The notes under the pieces are model-generated. The model was not told the DNA's origin. It saw only the letters and a list, made by a program, of their open reading frames with translations, and made no database searches. Positions 8,609-64,000 of a DNA stretch of 64,000 bases are shown here, one piece after another; position 1 is the first letter of the stretch, and each line of letters begins with the position of its first letter. The stretch spans positions 1 through 64,000 of the forward strand of contig NZ_FNIT01000008.1 in assembly GCF_900104035.1 (NCBI RefSeq), given 5' to 3'. Source of the DNA: Aureimonas jatrophae (GTDB lineage Bacteria > Pseudomonadota > Alphaproteobacteria > Rhizobiales > Rhizobiaceae). Made by a program: the position numbers and the translations under genes.

Positions 8609-9727
8609 TCAGGCGCGCTGCACCTCCCAGCCGAGCGGAGGGTCGCGGGCCAGGATCTCGTCGACCTTGGTGTCCCGGATCTGGCGGATCGTGTCGGAGC
8701 CGGTCTTGTCGAGATAGCGGATCATGCCGTTGAGAATGCGGATCGGGAGTTCCGGGCCGCCATAGATCAGCGACGTGTAGAGCTGCACGAGATCGGCGCC
8801 AGCCTCCATCTTGCCGAGCGCGGTGCGTGCGCTCTCGACCCCGCCCGCTCCGATCAGGGGGAAGTCGGAGCCGAGCGCGCGGCGGAAGGCGGCCAGCGCG
8901 TAGGTCGAGCGCGAAAAGAGCGGGCGCCCCGAAAGGCCGCCCGTCTCGTTGGCGAAGCGCCGGCCCTCGACGCCCTGACGCGAAAGCGTCGTGTTGGACA
9001 CGATCAGCCCGTCCACCTTGCGACGCAGCGCGGTCTCGGCGATCGCCTCGATCTCGTCTCGCGACAGGTCGGGCGCGACCTTCACGAAGAGGGGACGACG
9101 CTCCTCGGCCAGGATCGCGGCCGCCCCGTCGCGCGCGGCAACCGAATGCTCTAGAAGCTCATCCAGCGACGAACCCTTCTGCAGATCGCGCAGGCCCGGC
9201 GTGTTGGGCGAGGAGATGTTGACGGTGAGGTAGGAGGAGAGCGGCAGGAAGCGATGGATGCCGGCGACATAGTCGCCGATCCGGTCGCTCGTGTCCTTGT
9301 TGGCGCCGATGTTGACACCCACGATGCCGCCGCGCCGGCGTCTCGCCTCGAGGCGCTCGGCAACGTCGGCATGGCCCTCGTTGTTGAAGCCGAGACGGTT
9401 GATCACCGCAAAGGACTCCGGCAGCCGGAAGATGCGGGGCCGCTCGTTGCCCTCCTGCGGCTGGGGCGTGACGGTGCCGATCTCGACGAAGCCGAAGCCG
9501 AGCCTCAGCAGCGCATCGGGCGCCTCGGCGTTCTTGTCGTAGCCGGCCGCCAGACCTAGCGGGTTGGGAAAGCGCAGCCCCGCCACCTCGACGCGCAACC
9601 GCGCGTCCAGCGGCAGGTCCTGACGCTTGAAGAGGCCGCGCTTCAGCGCTTCCAGCGACAGACCGTGGGCGCGTTCGGGGTCGAGCGCGAAGAGAACCGG
9701 CCGGGCGAAGCGATAGAGCCGGCTCAC
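8609..9727 (-). CDS. pyrD: Dihydroorotate dehydrogenase (quinone), class 2
   Basis: PyrD oxidises dihydroorotate to orotate, passing electrons through FMN to membrane quinone in pyrimidine synthesis. The 372-residue product is of class 2 length, with an N-terminal amphipathic helix region (SRLYRFARPVLFALDPERAHGL) for membrane attachment. It has the family motifs GFGFVEIGTVTPQPQEGNERPRIFRL and NISSPNTPGLRDLQ, the latter holding the catalytic serine. The start is GTG at 9727, inside a GTGA overlap with the stop of the DUF952 gene, so the two are translationally coupled. Confidence 0.97.
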   Translation of the reverse strand: MSRLYRFARPVLFALDPERAHGLSLEALKRGLFKRQDLPLDARLRVEVAGLRFPNPLGLAAGYDKNAEAPDALLRLGFGFVEIGTVTPQPQEGNERPRIFRLPESFAVINRLGFNNEGHADVAERLEARRRRGGIVGVNIGANKDTSDRIGDYVAGIHRFLPLSSYLTVNISSPNTPGLRDLQKGSSLDELLEHSVAARDGAAAILAEERRPLFVKVAPDLSRDEIEAIAETALRRKVDGLIVSNTTLSRQGVEGRRFANETGGLSGRPLFSRSTYALAAFRRALGSDFPLIGAGGVESARTALGKMEAGADLVQLYTSLIYGGPELPIRILNGMIRYLDKTGSDTIRQIRDTKVDEILARDPPLGWEVQRA

Positions 9728-10077
9728 CGGAGGCTGTCCGGGAAGTGGTGACCGTCGCCGTCGCGGTAGTCGATGTCCTCGACATACAGCACCGCATCGA
9801 GATCGAGTGGCTCGTAGAGATGGGGGAACAGGGCGCCCCCGCGCGAGGGCTCCCAGCGCAACGCCGCGCCGAGCACGGCCGGGTCCACCGCCACCATTAC
9901 CAGCGCGCGCTCGTCCGCGAAGTGCTTGGCGGCCGTCTCGCGCACCTGCGCCGCCGTCGAGAAGTGGATGAAGCCGTCCTGAAGATCGACGGTCGATCCC
10001 TCGAAACGGCCGCGATCCTCGGCCTCGAGCCAGAGTGTGCGGGACAGGAGCTTGTAGATCGGGGCGTGCGGGCTCAT
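9724..10077 (-). CDS. DUF952 family protein
   Basis: The 117-residue product starts MSPHAPIYKLLSRTLWLEAE and carries GFIHFSTAAQV and PHLYEPLDL, typical of DUF952 (a small alpha+beta domain related to ADP-ribosyltransferase-like folds). A longer in-frame extension upstream lacks family similarity, so ATG 10077 was chosen. It overlaps the pyrD start by four bases. Function is not established. Confidence 0.85.
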   Translation of the reverse strand: MSPHAPIYKLLSRTLWLEAEDRGRFEGSTVDLQDGFIHFSTAAQVRETAAKHFADERALVMVAVDPAVLGAALRWEPSRGGALFPHLYEPLDLDAVLYVEDIDYRDGDGHHFPDSLR

Positions 10078-10109
10078 GCCTCTCGCGGTGCCAGAGGGAG
10101 GGGCGAAAA

Positions 10110-11111
10110 TCAATCCTGCGAGAGGACGCGGGACGAAGCGTCGCCGAGATGGCGCAGGAGAAAGGCTGCCATCAAAGCCTCCGAGCGCCGCGCGGCCTCC
10201 GAGGCGAAGGCCTGGTAGACATGGCAACCGTCGGGCTGGACGTCGAGCTCGGTCCGGTTACCCGCGGCCAGCCAGCGGGCGGCCATGAAGAGCGTGTCGT
10301 CGAGCAGGAGGTCGCGCGTGCCCACGCCGAAGAGCGCGGGCGGCAGGCGTTCGAGCCCGGCAAACAGCGGCGAGACCGCGGGATCGCGCAAGGCCAAGCT
10401 GTCGGGCACGAAGCGCTGGACGAACTCCACTACGTCCTGCGTGTTGAGAACGAGGCGCTCGGACCCGAAGGATCGCACCGAGGGCGTCAGCGACAGATCA
10501 TAGGCGCCGGCCACGAGATTGGCGGCGTGAAACGGCGTCTGGTCGTGGAGGTCGCGCAGGCGCAGGAGGACCAGCACCGAGAGATGGGCGCCCGCCGACT
10601 CGCCGCCGATGGCGAGCCGACCGGTCGGCGCGCCGTCCACCTCGCCTCGCAGAAGAGCCAGGGCCGCGTCCTCGCAATCGTCGGGGGCGGCCGGAAAGGG
10701 ATGTTCGGGCGCGAGCCGGTAGTCCACCGACACGCTGACAAGACCGGTCGCTTCCACGAGGCGTCGCAACCTCGCATCGTTCTCGGTGGCTTCGCCGAAC
10801 ACCCAGCCGCCGCCGTGGATGTGGAGATAGGTGCCGATCGCCGCCCGGGTGGCGGGGCGCAGGATCCGCAAGGGTATGGGATGGCCGGCCCGGCCGCGCA
10901 CGCTCACGATGCTCGCATCCGGGTCGGGCTGAAGCCCCGGAAACACGCCGCGCCCCTCGCGCCGGGCCTGGCGCACGGTTTCCAGCGGCAGGTCCCAGGC
11001 GCTCGGCATCGAGGCCTGGAAGCTCTCGATCTCGGCATTGATGCGCTTCAGCTCGGCGTCGCCCGCTTCCAGCGCGAAGGGTGCGGCCGCGATCAGTTTC
11101 TCGTCGGTCAT
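10110..11111 (-). CDS. Alpha/beta hydrolase of the hormone-sensitive lipase family
   Basis: This 333-residue esterase has the oxyanion-hole motif HGGGW at 99-103 and the nucleophile elbow GGESAGA with Ser172. An Asp in GTRDLLLDD (about 274-282) and a His in DGCHVYQAF near 303 complete the triad. These are the hallmarks of bacterial HSL-type (family IV) esterases acting on short acyl esters. It lies 32 bp upstream of the DUF952-pyrD pair on the same strand and may share its transcript. Natural substrate unknown. Confidence 0.9.
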   Translation of the reverse strand: MTDEKLIAAAPFALEAGDAELKRINAEIESFQASMPSAWDLPLETVRQARREGRGVFPGLQPDPDASIVSVRGRAGHPIPLRILRPATRAAIGTYLHIHGGGWVFGEATENDARLRRLVEATGLVSVSVDYRLAPEHPFPAAPDDCEDAALALLRGEVDGAPTGRLAIGGESAGAHLSVLVLLRLRDLHDQTPFHAANLVAGAYDLSLTPSVRSFGSERLVLNTQDVVEFVQRFVPDSLALRDPAVSPLFAGLERLPPALFGVGTRDLLLDDTLFMAARWLAAGNRTELDVQPDGCHVYQAFASEAARRSEALMAAFLLRHLGDASSRVLSQD

Positions 11112-11233
11112 GGGTCAAACGCTCCGGCTGTGATTTCGCCTGCAACCCGAGGCCAAGGCCGACGGTTGCCTGAAACCCCGGCAAGAATAGCGCGCCGCAT
11201 TGCGGTCGCTACGCCCCAGCGGATCCATGACCC

Positions 11234-59121: not shown

Positions 59122-59409
59122 ATGTCCCGCAGCCTCGCCACCGTTCCCACCGAGCACGCCAGCCGCTACCTCCAGCAGCTCTGCAAGCATTGGGCGCACA
59201 AGTTTCCCGTGGAGTTCACGCCGGAGGCGGGCACGATCGACCTGCCGGCCGGGCGGACGGAACTCGGCGCGGACGGCGCTGCGCTTCGTATCGCGATCAC
59301 GGCGGGGGAGGGCGGCGACCTCGACCGGCTGGAGGCGGTCGTCGCCGATCACATCAAGCGCTTCGCGTTTCGCGAAGAGCTCAGCTTCGATTGGCACCGG
59401 GAGGCCTGA
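59122..59409 (+). CDS. DUF2218 protein
   Basis: The 95-residue protein shows the DUF2218 pattern: VPTEHASRYLQQLCKHWAHKFPVEF, then GTIDLPAG, and the C-terminal FAFREELSFDWHREA. Members are small proteins of unknown role, often found with iron or siderophore genes in other bacteria. No such genes are visible here. GGAG lies before the ATG. Confidence 0.88.
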   Translation: MSRSLATVPTEHASRYLQQLCKHWAHKFPVEFTPEAGTIDLPAGRTELGADGAALRIAITAGEGGDLDRLEAVVADHIKRFAFREELSFDWHREA

Positions 59410-59427: not shown

Positions 59428-60630
59428 TCAGGCGCCGCCCGCGCGCTGGAGGAGGCCGCGATAGATCTCGTCGTCGTCGCACAGGCCCGCGAGACGGCCG
59501 AGGTCGTCGACGAGCAGGATCGGATGGTTGGTCTGGCGCTTGAGCGCGATCGCCGCGCGCAGGCGCAGGTCCACCGGCGCCACCACGACATCGCAGGTCC
59601 CCGCGATCGCGCCGTCCTCGGCGCCCGCACGGCCGAGGCGCGCGGCGCCGCCGTCGATCCGCACGGCGGTCGGCCGGTCGCTCTCGTCGACCGCGAGCCG
59701 CACGCGGCCGGCGTCGTCCAGAAGGAGCTCGCCGCCCTCGCGCCGAATGGCATGGGCCGGACGCATCAGCGCCGCGCCGCGCAGAACGTTCAGCGGGTTC
59801 ACGTGGCGCACGAACTCCGCGACGTAGGGCGTCGCGGGCGAGAGCAGGATATCCTCGGCACTGCCGGCCTGTACGATGCGCCCGTCCTGCATGATGGCGA
59901 TGCGGTTGCCGAGCTTCATCGCCTCGTCGAGGTCGTGGCTGACGAAGAGGATGGTCTTCCGGAGCGTCTTCTGCAGATCGAGGAGTTCGTCCTGCAGCTT
60001 GGTGCGGATCAGGGGATCGAGCGCCGAGAAGGGCTCGTCCATCAGGAGGATCGGCGCATCGGTCGCAAAGGCGCGTGCGAGGCCGACGCGCTGCTGCATG
60101 CCGCCCGACAGCTCGTGGGCGTACTTGTCGCCCCAGGCGCCGAGCCCGACCATGGCGAGCTTCTCGTCCACCACGCGTCGTCGCTCCGCCGGAGATACGC
60201 CCTGCAGTTCCAGTCCGAGCCCCGCGTTCTCGCGCACCGTGCGCCAGGGCAGGAGGCCGAACTGCTGGAATACCATGGAGACGGTGTGGGTGCGCAGCGC
60301 CCGCAGCGTGCGCGCGTCGCAGTGCGCGACATCCACCGGCCGGCCCTCGTGGCTGACCAGCACCTCGCCGCGCGCGACCTCGTTCAGGCCGTTCACGGCG
60401 CGCAGGATCGTGGACTTGCCGGAGCCCGACAGGCCCATGAGGACGCAGATCTCGCCCGGCTCGACGCGCAGGGAGACGCCGGCCGCACCCAGCACCACGT
60501 CGGTCTCGTCGAGGATGCGCGCACGGTCTGCGCCGTTGTCGAGAAGCCGCAGTGCGCCCGTCTGGTCGCGCCCGAACAGGATGTCGACTTGGCGGAACTC
60601 GATCGCGGGAAGCCCGCTTGCGGCGCTCAT
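59428..60630 (-). CDS. choV: Choline ABC transporter ATPase
   Basis: The 400-residue glycine-betaine/choline-type ATPase has Walker A GLSGSGKST, Q-loop VFQQFGLLPWRTV, signature LSGGMQQRVGLARAFA and Walker B ILLMDEPFSALD. A C-terminal CBS-like regulatory part runs from about 290 to the end. The insert ...IEFRQVDILFG...RILDETDVVLGAAG... near the start is typical of ChoV. It overlaps choW by four bases. Confidence 0.94.
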   Translation of the reverse strand: MSAASGLPAIEFRQVDILFGRDQTGALRLLDNGADRARILDETDVVLGAAGVSLRVEPGEICVLMGLSGSGKSTILRAVNGLNEVARGEVLVSHEGRPVDVAHCDARTLRALRTHTVSMVFQQFGLLPWRTVRENAGLGLELQGVSPAERRRVVDEKLAMVGLGAWGDKYAHELSGGMQQRVGLARAFATDAPILLMDEPFSALDPLIRTKLQDELLDLQKTLRKTILFVSHDLDEAMKLGNRIAIMQDGRIVQAGSAEDILLSPATPYVAEFVRHVNPLNVLRGAALMRPAHAIRREGGELLLDDAGRVRLAVDESDRPTAVRIDGGAARLGRAGAEDGAIAGTCDVVVAPVDLRLRAAIALKRQTNHPILLVDDLGRLAGLCDDDEIYRGLLQRAGGA

Positions 60631-61493
60631 GCCCCGCGCTCCCGGCGCACCGCGCGTCGCGCGACCGGGCGCTTGCATATGCGGTCGAGAAGGATGGCGA
60701 GGATCACGATGGCCAGTCCCGCCTCGAAGCCCATGCCGATGTTCACCGTGTTGAGCGCCCGCACCACCGGCTTGCCCAGGCCGTCGGCGCCCACCAGCGC
60801 CGCGATCACCACCATGGAGAGCGACAACATGATGCACTGCGTGACGCCGGCCATGATGGTCGGCAGCGCGTGCGGCAGCTCGACCTTGAACAGGAGCTGG
60901 CGGCGCGTCGCGCCAAAGGCCGCAGCTGCCTCGCGAAGCGCCGTCGGAACGGAGGAGAGGCCGAGATAGGTGAGACGGATCGGGGCGGGGATCGCGAAGA
61001 TCACGGTGGAGATGAGGCCGGGCACCGCGCCGAGGCCGAAGAGCACCAGGGTCGGGATCAGGTAGACGAAGGTCGGGATCGTCTGCATCAGGTCGAGAAA
61101 GGGCCGCAGCACCGTGTAGACCCACGGGCGATGGGCCGCCGCAATGCCGAGCGGCACGCCCACCACCACGCAGACCAGCGTCGCGCAGAACACCAGCGAC
61201 AGGGTCTGCACCGTCTCGGTCCAGTAGCCGAGATTGATGATCAGGAGGAGCGACAGCACCGCGAACGCCGCAAGCGCAAGCGAGCGGTGCAGCCAATAGG
61301 CCCCCGCACCCACGAGCGCCACGAAGAGAAGAGGAGGAACGAGTTCGAGCCCCGCGGTGAGGGCGTCGATCAGGCCGCCCAGCGCCAGCGAGACGGCGTC
61401 GAAGAAACCCTGGCCATGCGTCGTCAGGCCGTCCACGAAGCCCCTCAGCCACAGGCCGAGGGGGATCTTGTGTTCCGTCAGCCAGTCGTACAT
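60627..61493 (-). CDS. choW: Choline ABC transporter permease
   Basis: The 288-residue ProW-type permease has six to seven helices and the core PFLDLMQTIPTFVYLIPTLVLFGLGAVPGLISTVIFAIPAPIRLTYLGL region (EAA-like loop with ATRRQLLFKVELPHALPTIMAG). It starts MYDWLTEHKIPLG, as ChoW proteins do. It lies 43 bp after choX. Confidence 0.94.
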   Translation of the reverse strand: MYDWLTEHKIPLGLWLRGFVDGLTTHGQGFFDAVSLALGGLIDALTAGLELVPPLLFVALVGAGAYWLHRSLALAAFAVLSLLLIINLGYWTETVQTLSLVFCATLVCVVVGVPLGIAAAHRPWVYTVLRPFLDLMQTIPTFVYLIPTLVLFGLGAVPGLISTVIFAIPAPIRLTYLGLSSVPTALREAAAAFGATRRQLLFKVELPHALPTIMAGVTQCIMLSLSMVVIAALVGADGLGKPVVRALNTVNIGMGFEAGLAIVILAILLDRICKRPVARRAVRRERGA

Positions 61494-61536: not shown

Positions 61537-62490
61537 TCAGCCGCCGAGCGCCGTCTCGACCGCCTCCGCGCCGGGCTTGCCGTCGAAGGTCGTCACGCCG
61601 TCGAGCCAGGGGCTCCAGGTATCGGAATGGTCGGCCAGCCAGGCCTTGGCCGCTTCGCCGGCATCCTTCCCGTCGTTCAGGATCGCGCCCATGATCTCGT
61701 TCTCCATGGGAAGCGAGAAGACGAGGTTGGCGAGAAGCTTGCCGAGGTTCGGGCAGTCCGCGGACAGGCCCTTGCGCGTCAGCGTGTAGATGGTCGCCCC
61801 GCCGTAGTTCGAGCCGAAGACCTCGTCGCCGCCCGACAGGTAGGACAGCTTGAAGTTCGCGTTCATCGGATGGGGCTCCCAGCCGAGGAAGACGATCGGC
61901 TGGTTCTGCCGGGTCTGGCGCGCGACCTGGGCGAGCATGCCCTGCTCGGATGACTCCACCAGCTCGAAGCCCTTGAGGCCGAACTGATTGTTTTCGATCA
62001 TGCCGAGGATGAGGCGGTTGCCGTCGTTGCCCGGCTCGATGCCGTAGATGCGGTTGTTCAACTGATCCTTGAAGCGCGCGATATCGGCGAAGGTCTTCAG
62101 GCCGTCGTTGTAGAGGGTGGTCGGCACCGCCAGCGTGTACTTCGCGCCTTCCAGGTTGGCGCGGATCACCTCGATCGAGCCCTCGTCGCGGTAGGGCTTC
62201 AGATCCGCCTCCATGGTCGGCATCCAGTTGCCGAGGAAGACGTCGATGTCCCGGTTCTTCAGCGAGGCGAAGGTGACCGGCAGGGCGAGAACGTCGGTGC
62301 GCGGCTCGTATCCGAGCGCCTGGAGGATCACCGACGCCGAAGCCGTGGTCGCCGTGATGTCGGTCCACCCGACATCGGCAAAGCGCACCGCGCGGCAGCT
62401 GGCAGGATCGGCGGCCTGGGCCGCGGCCCCGCCCAGCAACGCGGCGGCGAGGGCAAGGGGAAGGGCGCGAGCGAGACGGTTGGCGAGCAT
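61537..62490 (-). CDS. choX: Choline ABC transporter substrate-binding protein
   Basis: The 317-residue periplasmic protein has a signal peptide ending AAAQA-AD. The OpuAC-type fold carries the choline-site residues in VRFADVGWTDITATTA, FLGNWMPTME, GIEPGNDGNRLI and FLGWEPHPMN, close to Sinorhizobium ChoX. It gathers choline for conversion to glycine betaine by the divergent bet gene(s). A BetI-like site precedes it. Confidence 0.94.
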   Translation of the reverse strand: MLANRLARALPLALAAALLGGAAAQAADPASCRAVRFADVGWTDITATTASASVILQALGYEPRTDVLALPVTFASLKNRDIDVFLGNWMPTMEADLKPYRDEGSIEVIRANLEGAKYTLAVPTTLYNDGLKTFADIARFKDQLNNRIYGIEPGNDGNRLILGMIENNQFGLKGFELVESSEQGMLAQVARQTRQNQPIVFLGWEPHPMNANFKLSYLSGGDEVFGSNYGGATIYTLTRKGLSADCPNLGKLLANLVFSLPMENEIMGAILNDGKDAGEAAKAWLADHSDTWSPWLDGVTTFDGKPGAEAVETALGG

Positions 62491-62617
62491 GCTGCGAGTG
62501 GTCCTTCTGGGCTTCGGAAGGGCGGAAGATACAGGAGCAGGCCGTCGATCGGGTGCACAATCGCACGATCTTCCCGTCATTCGGTGTCGGGAAACGGCAC
62601 TTGTCAAGCCGCATCGC

Positions 62618-62632
62618 TGAACGTTCGTTCGA
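62618..62632 (-). promoter_or_regulatory. BetI-like operator on the choX side
   Basis: TGAACGTTCGTTCGA includes the palindrome GAACGTTC and shares GTTCGTTCRAT (one ambiguous base) with the site at 62758. It is about 130 bp upstream of choX. Confidence 0.55.
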
Positions 62633-62817: not shown

Positions 62818-64000
62818 ATGAGCCGCAGCGCCGTCGCCGTTCGGAGCCCGACCGAGGACCAGCGCCGCCGCCAGCTGGTGGACGCGACGATCCAGTCGCT
62901 CGCCGAGATCGGCTTCTCGGCCTCCAGCCTGGCGGAGATCGCGGGGCGGGCCGGCGTCGCGCCCTCGCTCGTCGCCCACTACTTCGGCGACAAGGACGGC
63001 CTCCTGGAGGCCACGCTGCGCCATCTGGCCCGCCGCATCTCGGATGCCGCCCGTCTACGACTGCGCCGGGCGGAGGGACCGCGCGAGCGCATCCAGGCGG
63101 TGATCGACGCCAACCTCGCGGCCGAGGAGTTCGACGCGCGGACCTGCGCCGTTTGGCTCGCCTTCTGGGGGCAGGTGCCGCATTCCGCCCGACTGAAGCG
63201 CGTCCAGCGCGTGTATCAGCGACGCATGCTGTCCAACCTCGTCTTCGACCTACGCAGCCTGGTCGCGCCCGAGGAGGCGCCGCGCATCGCGCAGGCGATC
63301 GCCGCGATCATCGACGGGTTGTGGCTGCGCGCCTCGCTGGCCGAGGTCGCCGAAACCGACAGCCTAGCCGCGCGCGCCACGGCCTCCGCCTTCACGGATG
63401 CCCAGATTGCGGGCGCCGTACCTCGGCGCGCCGACCGTCCGCGACGCGCGGCACCGGGGCTTCGCCTCCTGACGAGCCATGTGGGCGGTGCCTACATCGA
63501 TGCGGGACGCGAGCCGCAGGTCTTCCAGACGCTCAATCCGGCTACCGGCGAGGTGCTGGCCGAGATCGCGGTGGCGGACGCCGCCGTGGTCGACCATGCG
63601 GTCGCGACGGCCGCCGAGGCGCAGCGCGGATGGGGAGCGATGACCGGCGCCGAGCGCGGTCGTATCCTTCAACGTGTCGCCGCGCGGCTGCGCGAACGCA
63701 ACGACGAACTGGCCGTCCTGGAGGCGCGCGACACCGGCAAACCGATCGCCGAGACGTCCACGGTGGACGTCCTGTCGGGCGCCGACTGCATCGAGTTCTT
63801 CGCCGGAATGGCGGCCGGACTGTCGGGCGACCACGTCGATCTCGGACCGCTCGCCTTCGGCTACACGCGACGCGAGCCGCTCGGCGTCGTCGCCGGTATC
63901 GGTGCCTGGAACTATCCGCTCCAGATCGCCTGCTGGAAGGCGGCGCCCGCGCTGGCCGCCGGCAACAGCGTCGTCTTCAAACCGGCCGAGCTGACGCCGC
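62818..64000 (+). CDS. BetI repressor fused in frame to betaine aldehyde dehydrogenase (BetB), open at window end
   Basis: One uninterrupted frame from ATG 62818 (AGGAGG upstream) reads 394 codons to the window edge. Residues 1 to about 200 are a TetR-family BetI-type repressor: [52 protein letters not shown], then [21 protein letters not shown] and [14 protein letters not shown]. About 20 Arg/Ala/Pro-rich residues follow. From about 222 the frame is Bet[75 protein letters not shown] and [12 protein letters not shown]. No stop lies between. An in-frame GTG at 63481 could restart BetB but lacks a ribosome site. The catalytic Cys and Glu of the dehydrogenase are beyond the window. Confidence 0.88.

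Follow-up and report, generated by a model that had tools for sequence, protein, structure and literature searches.

In the betIBA and betICBA operons of E. coli, Sinorhizobium and Ruegeria, the repressor BetI and the betaine aldehyde dehydrogenase BetB are separate proteins. In Aureimonas jatrophae, both appear to lie in one continuous reading frame at the end of the window, the 64,000-nucleotide stretch of contig NZ_FNIT01000008.1 (positions 1 to 64,000) analysed here. Is a single protein encoded at this locus, and what would the enzyme half do for the repressor to which it is joined?

The ATG at 62818 opens a single frame that is free of stops to the end of the window (64000). On the contig beyond the window, the frame continues to 64920, with its stop codon at 64918-64920, and gives a product of 700 aa. 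Pfam matched TetR_N (residues 20-65, 45.7 bits), the BetI-type C-terminal domain TetR_C_6 (residues 88-197, 87.4 bits) and Aldedh (residues 234-689), all above their cut-offs, and no other domain, so that neither an RHH head nor a proline dehydrogenase was among its matches. The head passes the NCBIfam BetI equivalog TIGR03384 (208.9 bits versus a cut-off of 201.3), a model that is also matched by all 20 Aureimonas heads. The body passes the betaine aldehyde dehydrogenase (BADH) models TIGR01804 (672.5 versus 668.6 bits, residues 222-687) and NF009725 (765.5 versus 593). Residues N365 (NYP), E462 (LELGGK) and C496 (GEVCSN), which we take to be the catalytic Asn, Glu and Cys of BADH, are present, and the PaBADH mutants E252A and C286A are among the PDB matches. 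In the whole genome, the fusion is the sole BetI match (E <= 1e-15) and the sole betaine aldehyde dehydrogenase above the cut-off. The continuous BetI-BetB frame claimed by an earlier note on this DNA was thus borne out, together with its BetI domain at about residues 1-200 and its Arg/Ala/Pro-rich linker of about 20 residues (about 201-221). As read from the sequence, a regulator-enzyme fusion is what the locus encodes. The features are collected in Table 1.

Table 1. Features of the fusion locus in the window.
Feature	Position	Strand	Basis
choV, choline ABC transporter ATP-binding protein	59428..60630	-	TIGR03415 529.4 > 483.75
choW, choline ABC transporter permease	60627..61493	-	TIGR03416 411 > 363
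choX, choline ABC transporter substrate-binding protein, divergent from fusion	61537..62505	-	TIGR03414 460.7 > 379.05
Second operator-like palindrome CTGAACGTTCGTTCGA, choX side	62617..62632	.	12/14 to TTGAAYGNNCRTTCAA
Operator-like palindrome TTGAACGAACAATCAA, 40 bp before start codon	62762..62777	.	13/14 to TTGAAYGNNCRTTCAA
BetI (TetR-type repressor) half, residues 1-200	62818..63417	+	TetR_N, TetR_C_6, TIGR03384
Linker, residues 201-221, Arg/Ala/Pro-rich, no stop, no conserved start codon	63418..63480	+	20 Aureimonas, 73 fusions
BetB half, cut by the window end, runs on to 64920 including stop	63481..64000	+	TIGR01804

The predicted structure has the same two parts. An AlphaFold2 monomer model of a 94% identical protein (L079), built from a 73-sequence alignment, reached a mean pLDDT of 86.6 and a pTM of 0.69, and consists of a wholly helical head followed by an aldehyde dehydrogenase body, with pLDDT below 50 at residues 1-8, 207-209 and 657-677. 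Foldseek placed betaine aldehyde dehydrogenases at the top for this model (6wsa, 59% identity), and no chain covering both halves was found among the top 60 sequence matches listed per query.

The same single frame, 701-742 aa long, is present in 20 of the 21 Aureimonas genomes, that of the window among them, and the fusion is therefore not a sequencing error or a missed stop. The 19 other Aureimonas fusions are 67-94% identical over query residues 1-12 to 394, and their linkers vary in length among species and are always in frame. The remaining genome of the genus (G017), in which the fusion is missing, encodes a separate betB (59% identical; L189, 7993-9501) followed by betA (9545-11197), and no BetI match was found in it. 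This pair sits in a different context, beside genes that resemble by eye a peptide ABC transporter, and is perhaps a replacement by a foreign pair.

Beyond the genus, genome_contigs (one genome per species, 84,980 species) was scanned with the 20 Aureimonas heads as queries and two short peptide patterns, a search that favours near relatives because such patterns were sought. Relatives are encoded in 159 stretches, the best 80 of which, 15 of them from Aureimonas, were analysed. The complete fusion is found in 73 of these 80 loci, including two whose body is degenerate (L113, L119), and the catalytic Cys motif is kept in 71 of the 73. Among the other seven loci, four leave the contig inside the enzyme half, one leaves it inside BetI, L158 has Ns near the junction and L112 a frame break. 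The junction is readable in 78 of the 80 loci, and none of them has a stop between the halves. The break in L112 (6001-8123, a Parvibaculaceae MAG) lies inside the enzyme half and reflects error or decay. Named carriers include Aureimonas, Ancylobacter, Kaistia, Azorhizobium, Methylobrevis, Bosea, Faunimonas, Rhodomicrobium and Stakelama; further carriers are MAGs labelled Sphingomonadaceae, Caulobacterales, Gammaproteobacteria and Steroidobacteraceae, for which binning errors are possible. The range thus extends from Hyphomicrobiales to sphingomonads, Caulobacterales and Gammaproteobacteria MAGs, and the reading of the frame as a regulator-enzyme fusion is supported by its conservation far outside this genome.

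Three samples drawn at different ranks gave the surroundings of this distribution. Among 397 genomes of the order of the window, 164 matched at E <= 1e-40. All 17 matches of at least 298 bits are fused as far as their loci reach, three of them being Kaistia with a degenerate body; the next 23 matches (233-268 bits) comprise 17 short frames of 219-280 aa and six frames with a degenerate body, all six in one genus. Eight of the 17 short-frame loci were read: betB is separate and beside betI in L270-L274, and no betB match lies within the stretch read in L268, L269 and L275. A draw in the family of the window covered 394 genomes, 330 matching at E <= 1e-20, of which the best ~150 were considered; it recovered the fusion in eight genomes of the own genus and in no other genus, among the matches listed. 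In a phylum-wide draw of 398 genomes, 87 matched at E <= 1e-40 and five are fused, that of the window included. Two candidates with a long open frame by chance (G440/L276 and G174/L281) proved unfused on inspection.

A tree of 62 BetI heads, hand-chosen from 136, places all 40 fused rows in one clade with support of 97/92. The two unfused rows inside this clade are trimmed members of a genus with degenerate bodies, g116. FastTree on all 136 heads requires three changes between fused and separate states; L278 forms a long branch whose placement is unsure. This suggests a single origin of the fusion, which would have been kept across a large clade. The nearest heads outside the fused clade have separate betI and betB, and in unfused L271, L272, L273 and L274 the betI stop overlaps the out-of-frame betB ATG as ATGA (by eye), which indicates that the fusion probably arose through a frame change at or near such a junction.

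The gene neighbourhood is shared by most carriers. betA lies downstream of the fusion in the window's genome (TIGR01810, 806.3 > 732.1), and a divergent choX lies upstream in 65 of the 80 loci (best 80 of 159), some of the other 15 being short contigs. Four Aureimonas loci (L086, L088, L090 and L096; A. fodinaquatilis, A. altamirensis, A. frigidaquae) have choX before the fusion and no match to choW or choV in 6 kb upstream. In a Caulobacter MAG (L149), a choV match lies upstream, and choX and choW come after betA on its own strand, an arrangement that departs from the usual divergent one. In the window, a small DUF2218 protein (59122-59406, 118 bits) is convergent on the 3' end of choV.

The region between choX and the fusion gene contains two operator-like palindromes. 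Their motif, TTGAAYGNNCRTTCAA, was derived from these same regions and is its own reverse complement, and the two are the only sites of at least 12/14 in the 64 kb. By eye, these putative sites resemble the published BetI box, ATTGACG*CGTCAAT (PMC12442346; here and below, papers are cited from partial text). All 20 Aureimonas regions carry at least two sites at >=11/14, with 43 sites versus a mean of 0.41 in 100 base shuffles, the motif coming from these regions. Within 300 bp upstream, two or more sites were found in 19 of 29 other Hyphomicrobiales fusions, and two boxes in six of 29 regions of the fused group outside Hyphomicrobiales. Two boxes are present in 59 of 87 fused or trimmed regions and missing in 28; among unfused relatives with a divergent choX (L272-L277), two of six have more than one site.

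We examined the spacing of the boxes for helical phasing. At a preset 10.5 bp there was none (R 0.15-0.20); the best periods, found after looking, were 11.2-11.5 bp. The spacing looks stepped at ~11 bp, with phasing at 11.0-11.5 bp, and in a scan of 10-12 bp only 0.13% (27 thinned points) and 0.03% (25 fused) of random sets scored as high. This phasing is a lead only, because the thinning was chosen after seeing the spacings and two sites occur in only 59/87 regions. In vivo, fits of LacR loops gave 11.60 and 11.08 bp per turn (PMC1762422).

An indication of what the enzyme half does comes from lineages in which it has lost its catalytic motifs. In Kaistia, the fusion is present in six of 14 genomes, three intact and three degenerate, and absent from eight. 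The degenerate forms (K. granuli, L113/G407; K. adipata, L119/G408; and G422) keep a full-length body without the Cys motif, LELGGK and GAWNYP, and their deletions are in-frame. No betaine aldehyde dehydrogenase or betA above the cut-off was found in these three genomes, and choXWV is still divergent from the fusion. The tree of heads does not unite these three in a single clade, and the loss may therefore represent more than one event. In the degenerate trio the body has an omega of 0.22 and the head one of 0.07, compared with 0.04 and 0.02, respectively, in the intact Kaistia trio; omega 1 is rejected for the degenerate body (2dlnL 176), part of whose history may predate the loss. An AlphaFold2 model of the K. 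granuli protein is fair (mean pLDDT 80.4, pTM 0.44), and Foldseek still lists betaine aldehyde dehydrogenases first for it, with a TM of ~0.5 or less, so that the model does not show an intact fold. Kaistia terrae (L192, G409) has an intact fusion; no betA match lies at its locus and none above the cut-off was found in its genome, which would leave the aldehyde dehydrogenase without the enzyme that normally accompanies it.

The second case is genus g116 of the same order. Six of its eight matched genomes encode a degenerate body of ~400 aa that is 29-33% identical to the live one; the ninth, G514, gave no match. Since these bodies carry conserved motifs of their own, their common ancestor was probably already dead, and in the main this case escapes the caveat of pre-loss history that applies to Kaistia. 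Omega of the body is 0.16, and omega 1 is rejected (2dlnL 477). Without selection ~29 stops would be expected (1427 substitutions x ~2%, a rough figure); none occurs in the six frames, which were noticed because they are open. In the other two matched genomes, the enzyme half is trimmed to a short remnant, and the body is thus not indispensable. Seven of the eight matched genomes have a separate betB and a separate betA above the cut-offs, and in the four looked at, these genes come after choXWV and run divergently from the head. In the eighth, G1013, neither passes the cut-off and the head has no choXWV beside it. In L268 and L269 (G904, G1041), the BetI head is 232-233 aa long when counted from the match start, its end looks like what is left of the first helices of the lost enzyme body, and two operator-like boxes are retained. 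Two boxes are present in eight of the nine degenerate forms looked at (none in L267). Both trimmed forms keep two boxes as well, 12 bp closer than in their untrimmed relatives; the idea that trimmed forms lose box phase failed, this offset being about one turn. These patterns of sequence retention suggest that the retained dead enzyme half serves the repressor itself.

The reading that we favour, with a probability of roughly 70%, is a PutA-like repressor-enzyme with a TetR head, in which the enzyme body also serves the repressor. A single polypeptide of ~75 kDa, presumably translated as one protein, would contain an intact BetI repressor and an intact betaine aldehyde dehydrogenase. By analogy with BetI biology, the head would bind the two palindromes between choX and the fusion gene, would repress choXWV, and with it choline uptake, as well as its own betIB-betA operon, and would be released when the BetI part binds choline. 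The body, judging from its family and catalytic residues, would oxidise betaine aldehyde. After the fusion, it would have become part of the working structure of the repressor; where the catalytic motifs were lost, purifying selection has kept it in frame. TetR-type regulators function as dimers. The BADH of P. aeruginosa is tetrameric (PMC3554688), and with a BetB tetramer the fusion probably carries two DNA-binding dimers per tetramer. Such an assembly, of which our AlphaFold2 models represent the monomer, may bridge both boxes. A more specific version is tentative, and we put it somewhat short of even odds: the tetrameric ALDH body would hold two BetI dimers and bridge operators spaced by whole turns (~11 bp in vivo), coupling choline uptake, oxidation and enzyme state, and the dead enzyme would act as a scaffold or sensor in at least two lineages.

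The enzyme body could instead act as a second sensor, in which betaine aldehyde or NAD(H) bound there alters operator binding, in the way that PutA responds to NAD. For R. solanacearum PutA, NAD inhibits epsA promoter binding (PMC9132996), and the pseudo-enzyme bodies that stay conserved could have been kept as ligand sensors. However, the pseudo-enzyme lineages have deletions or changes around ISLTGEVGTG...LELGGK, which makes binding of NAD or aldehyde unlikely there, and these lineages render a structural role in oligomerisation at least as likely as sensing of NAD or substrate. Overall, we regard sensing by the body as rather unlikely.

We consider it improbable that the protein is a translated fusion of two independent domains with no effect on each other. 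The poor conservation of the linker and the trimming of the enzyme part in two g116 genomes would fit such a tether, as would the unfused BetI frames of ~200 aa that are the rule in other genera of the family, among the matches listed. Retention across a large clade after one origin argues against it, and so do Kaistia and g116, where the catalytic motifs were lost and yet the enzyme half stays in frame with omega well below 1. In g116, 7/8 matched genomes also have a separate betB above the cut-off.

The junctions bear on whether two proteins are made after all. The earlier note had suggested an internal start at 63481; a GTG codon (Val222) is indeed there, but no Shine-Dalgarno-like stretch precedes it (by eye), and it is absent from a 94% identical relative (L030). 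Three of the 20 Aureimonas junctions lack ATG, GTG and TTG, and no start codon is common to all 20. Among the 73 fusions from the best 80 of 159 stretches, 12 junctions lack all three codons, one of these belonging to an enzyme-dead form, and only six have a start with a Shine-Dalgarno-like stretch. An in-frame ATG occurs in 26 of the 73; in 15 of these, from Ancylobacter and other Xanthobacteraceae records, it lies 26-28 codons before NPATG, approximately at the old start of betB, and some free BetB may therefore be made there. Linkers of 20 to 47 residues are found among the fusions. The native BetB N-terminus is lost in, for example, L123, L138 and L150, and many fusions outside Hyphomicrobiales have a short linker and lack the first strand of BetB (both by eye). 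A joint frame that arose by accident from tight coupling, with BetB made mainly from a start inside the linker, would draw on the GTG of the window and on these 26 ATG codons, and is very improbable given the junctions without start codons, the scarcity of Shine-Dalgarno-like starts, the lack of the GTG in a 94% identical relative, the stop-free linkers of 20 to 47 residues and the BetB strand missing from some fusions.

To our knowledge, PutA is the sole known aldehyde-dehydrogenase-bearing repressor. Trifunctional PutA represses its own gene along with that of its pathway's transporter (PMC5293562). The fusion resembles it in having an N-terminal DNA-binding head fused to a catabolic enzyme that includes an aldehyde dehydrogenase domain, and differs from it in that the head is TetR/BetI rather than RHH, that only one enzyme step is joined, without proline dehydrogenase, and that this step belongs to the choline pathway. 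Lacking an RHH head and proline dehydrogenase, the fusion is not a PutA, and it may work like one. Like the separate BetI and BetB proteins, each half passes its family cut-offs, whereas here one polypeptide is encoded and the fused heads form one clade. Another aldehyde dehydrogenase fusion enzyme, which appears among the PDB matches, is 10-formyltetrahydrofolate dehydrogenase. ALDH-ADH fusions are others (PMC12454647). Both have an aldehyde dehydrogenase domain inside a fusion protein; in them two enzymes are joined, whereas here a transcription factor is joined to an enzyme. A literature search, with subscription journals mostly outside its scope, found no BetI-BetB or TetR-aldehyde dehydrogenase fusion named in a title or abstract opening among the matches listed.

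With one fused clade, unfused sisters whose genes are out of frame, and natural dead and trimmed forms, the role of the enzyme for the transcription factor is directly testable, as heads of one kind come with living, dead or trimmed bodies that can be compared. The fusion would be a second, independent solution beside PutA, one that draws on the large TetR superfamily and on a pathway at the centre of osmoprotection.
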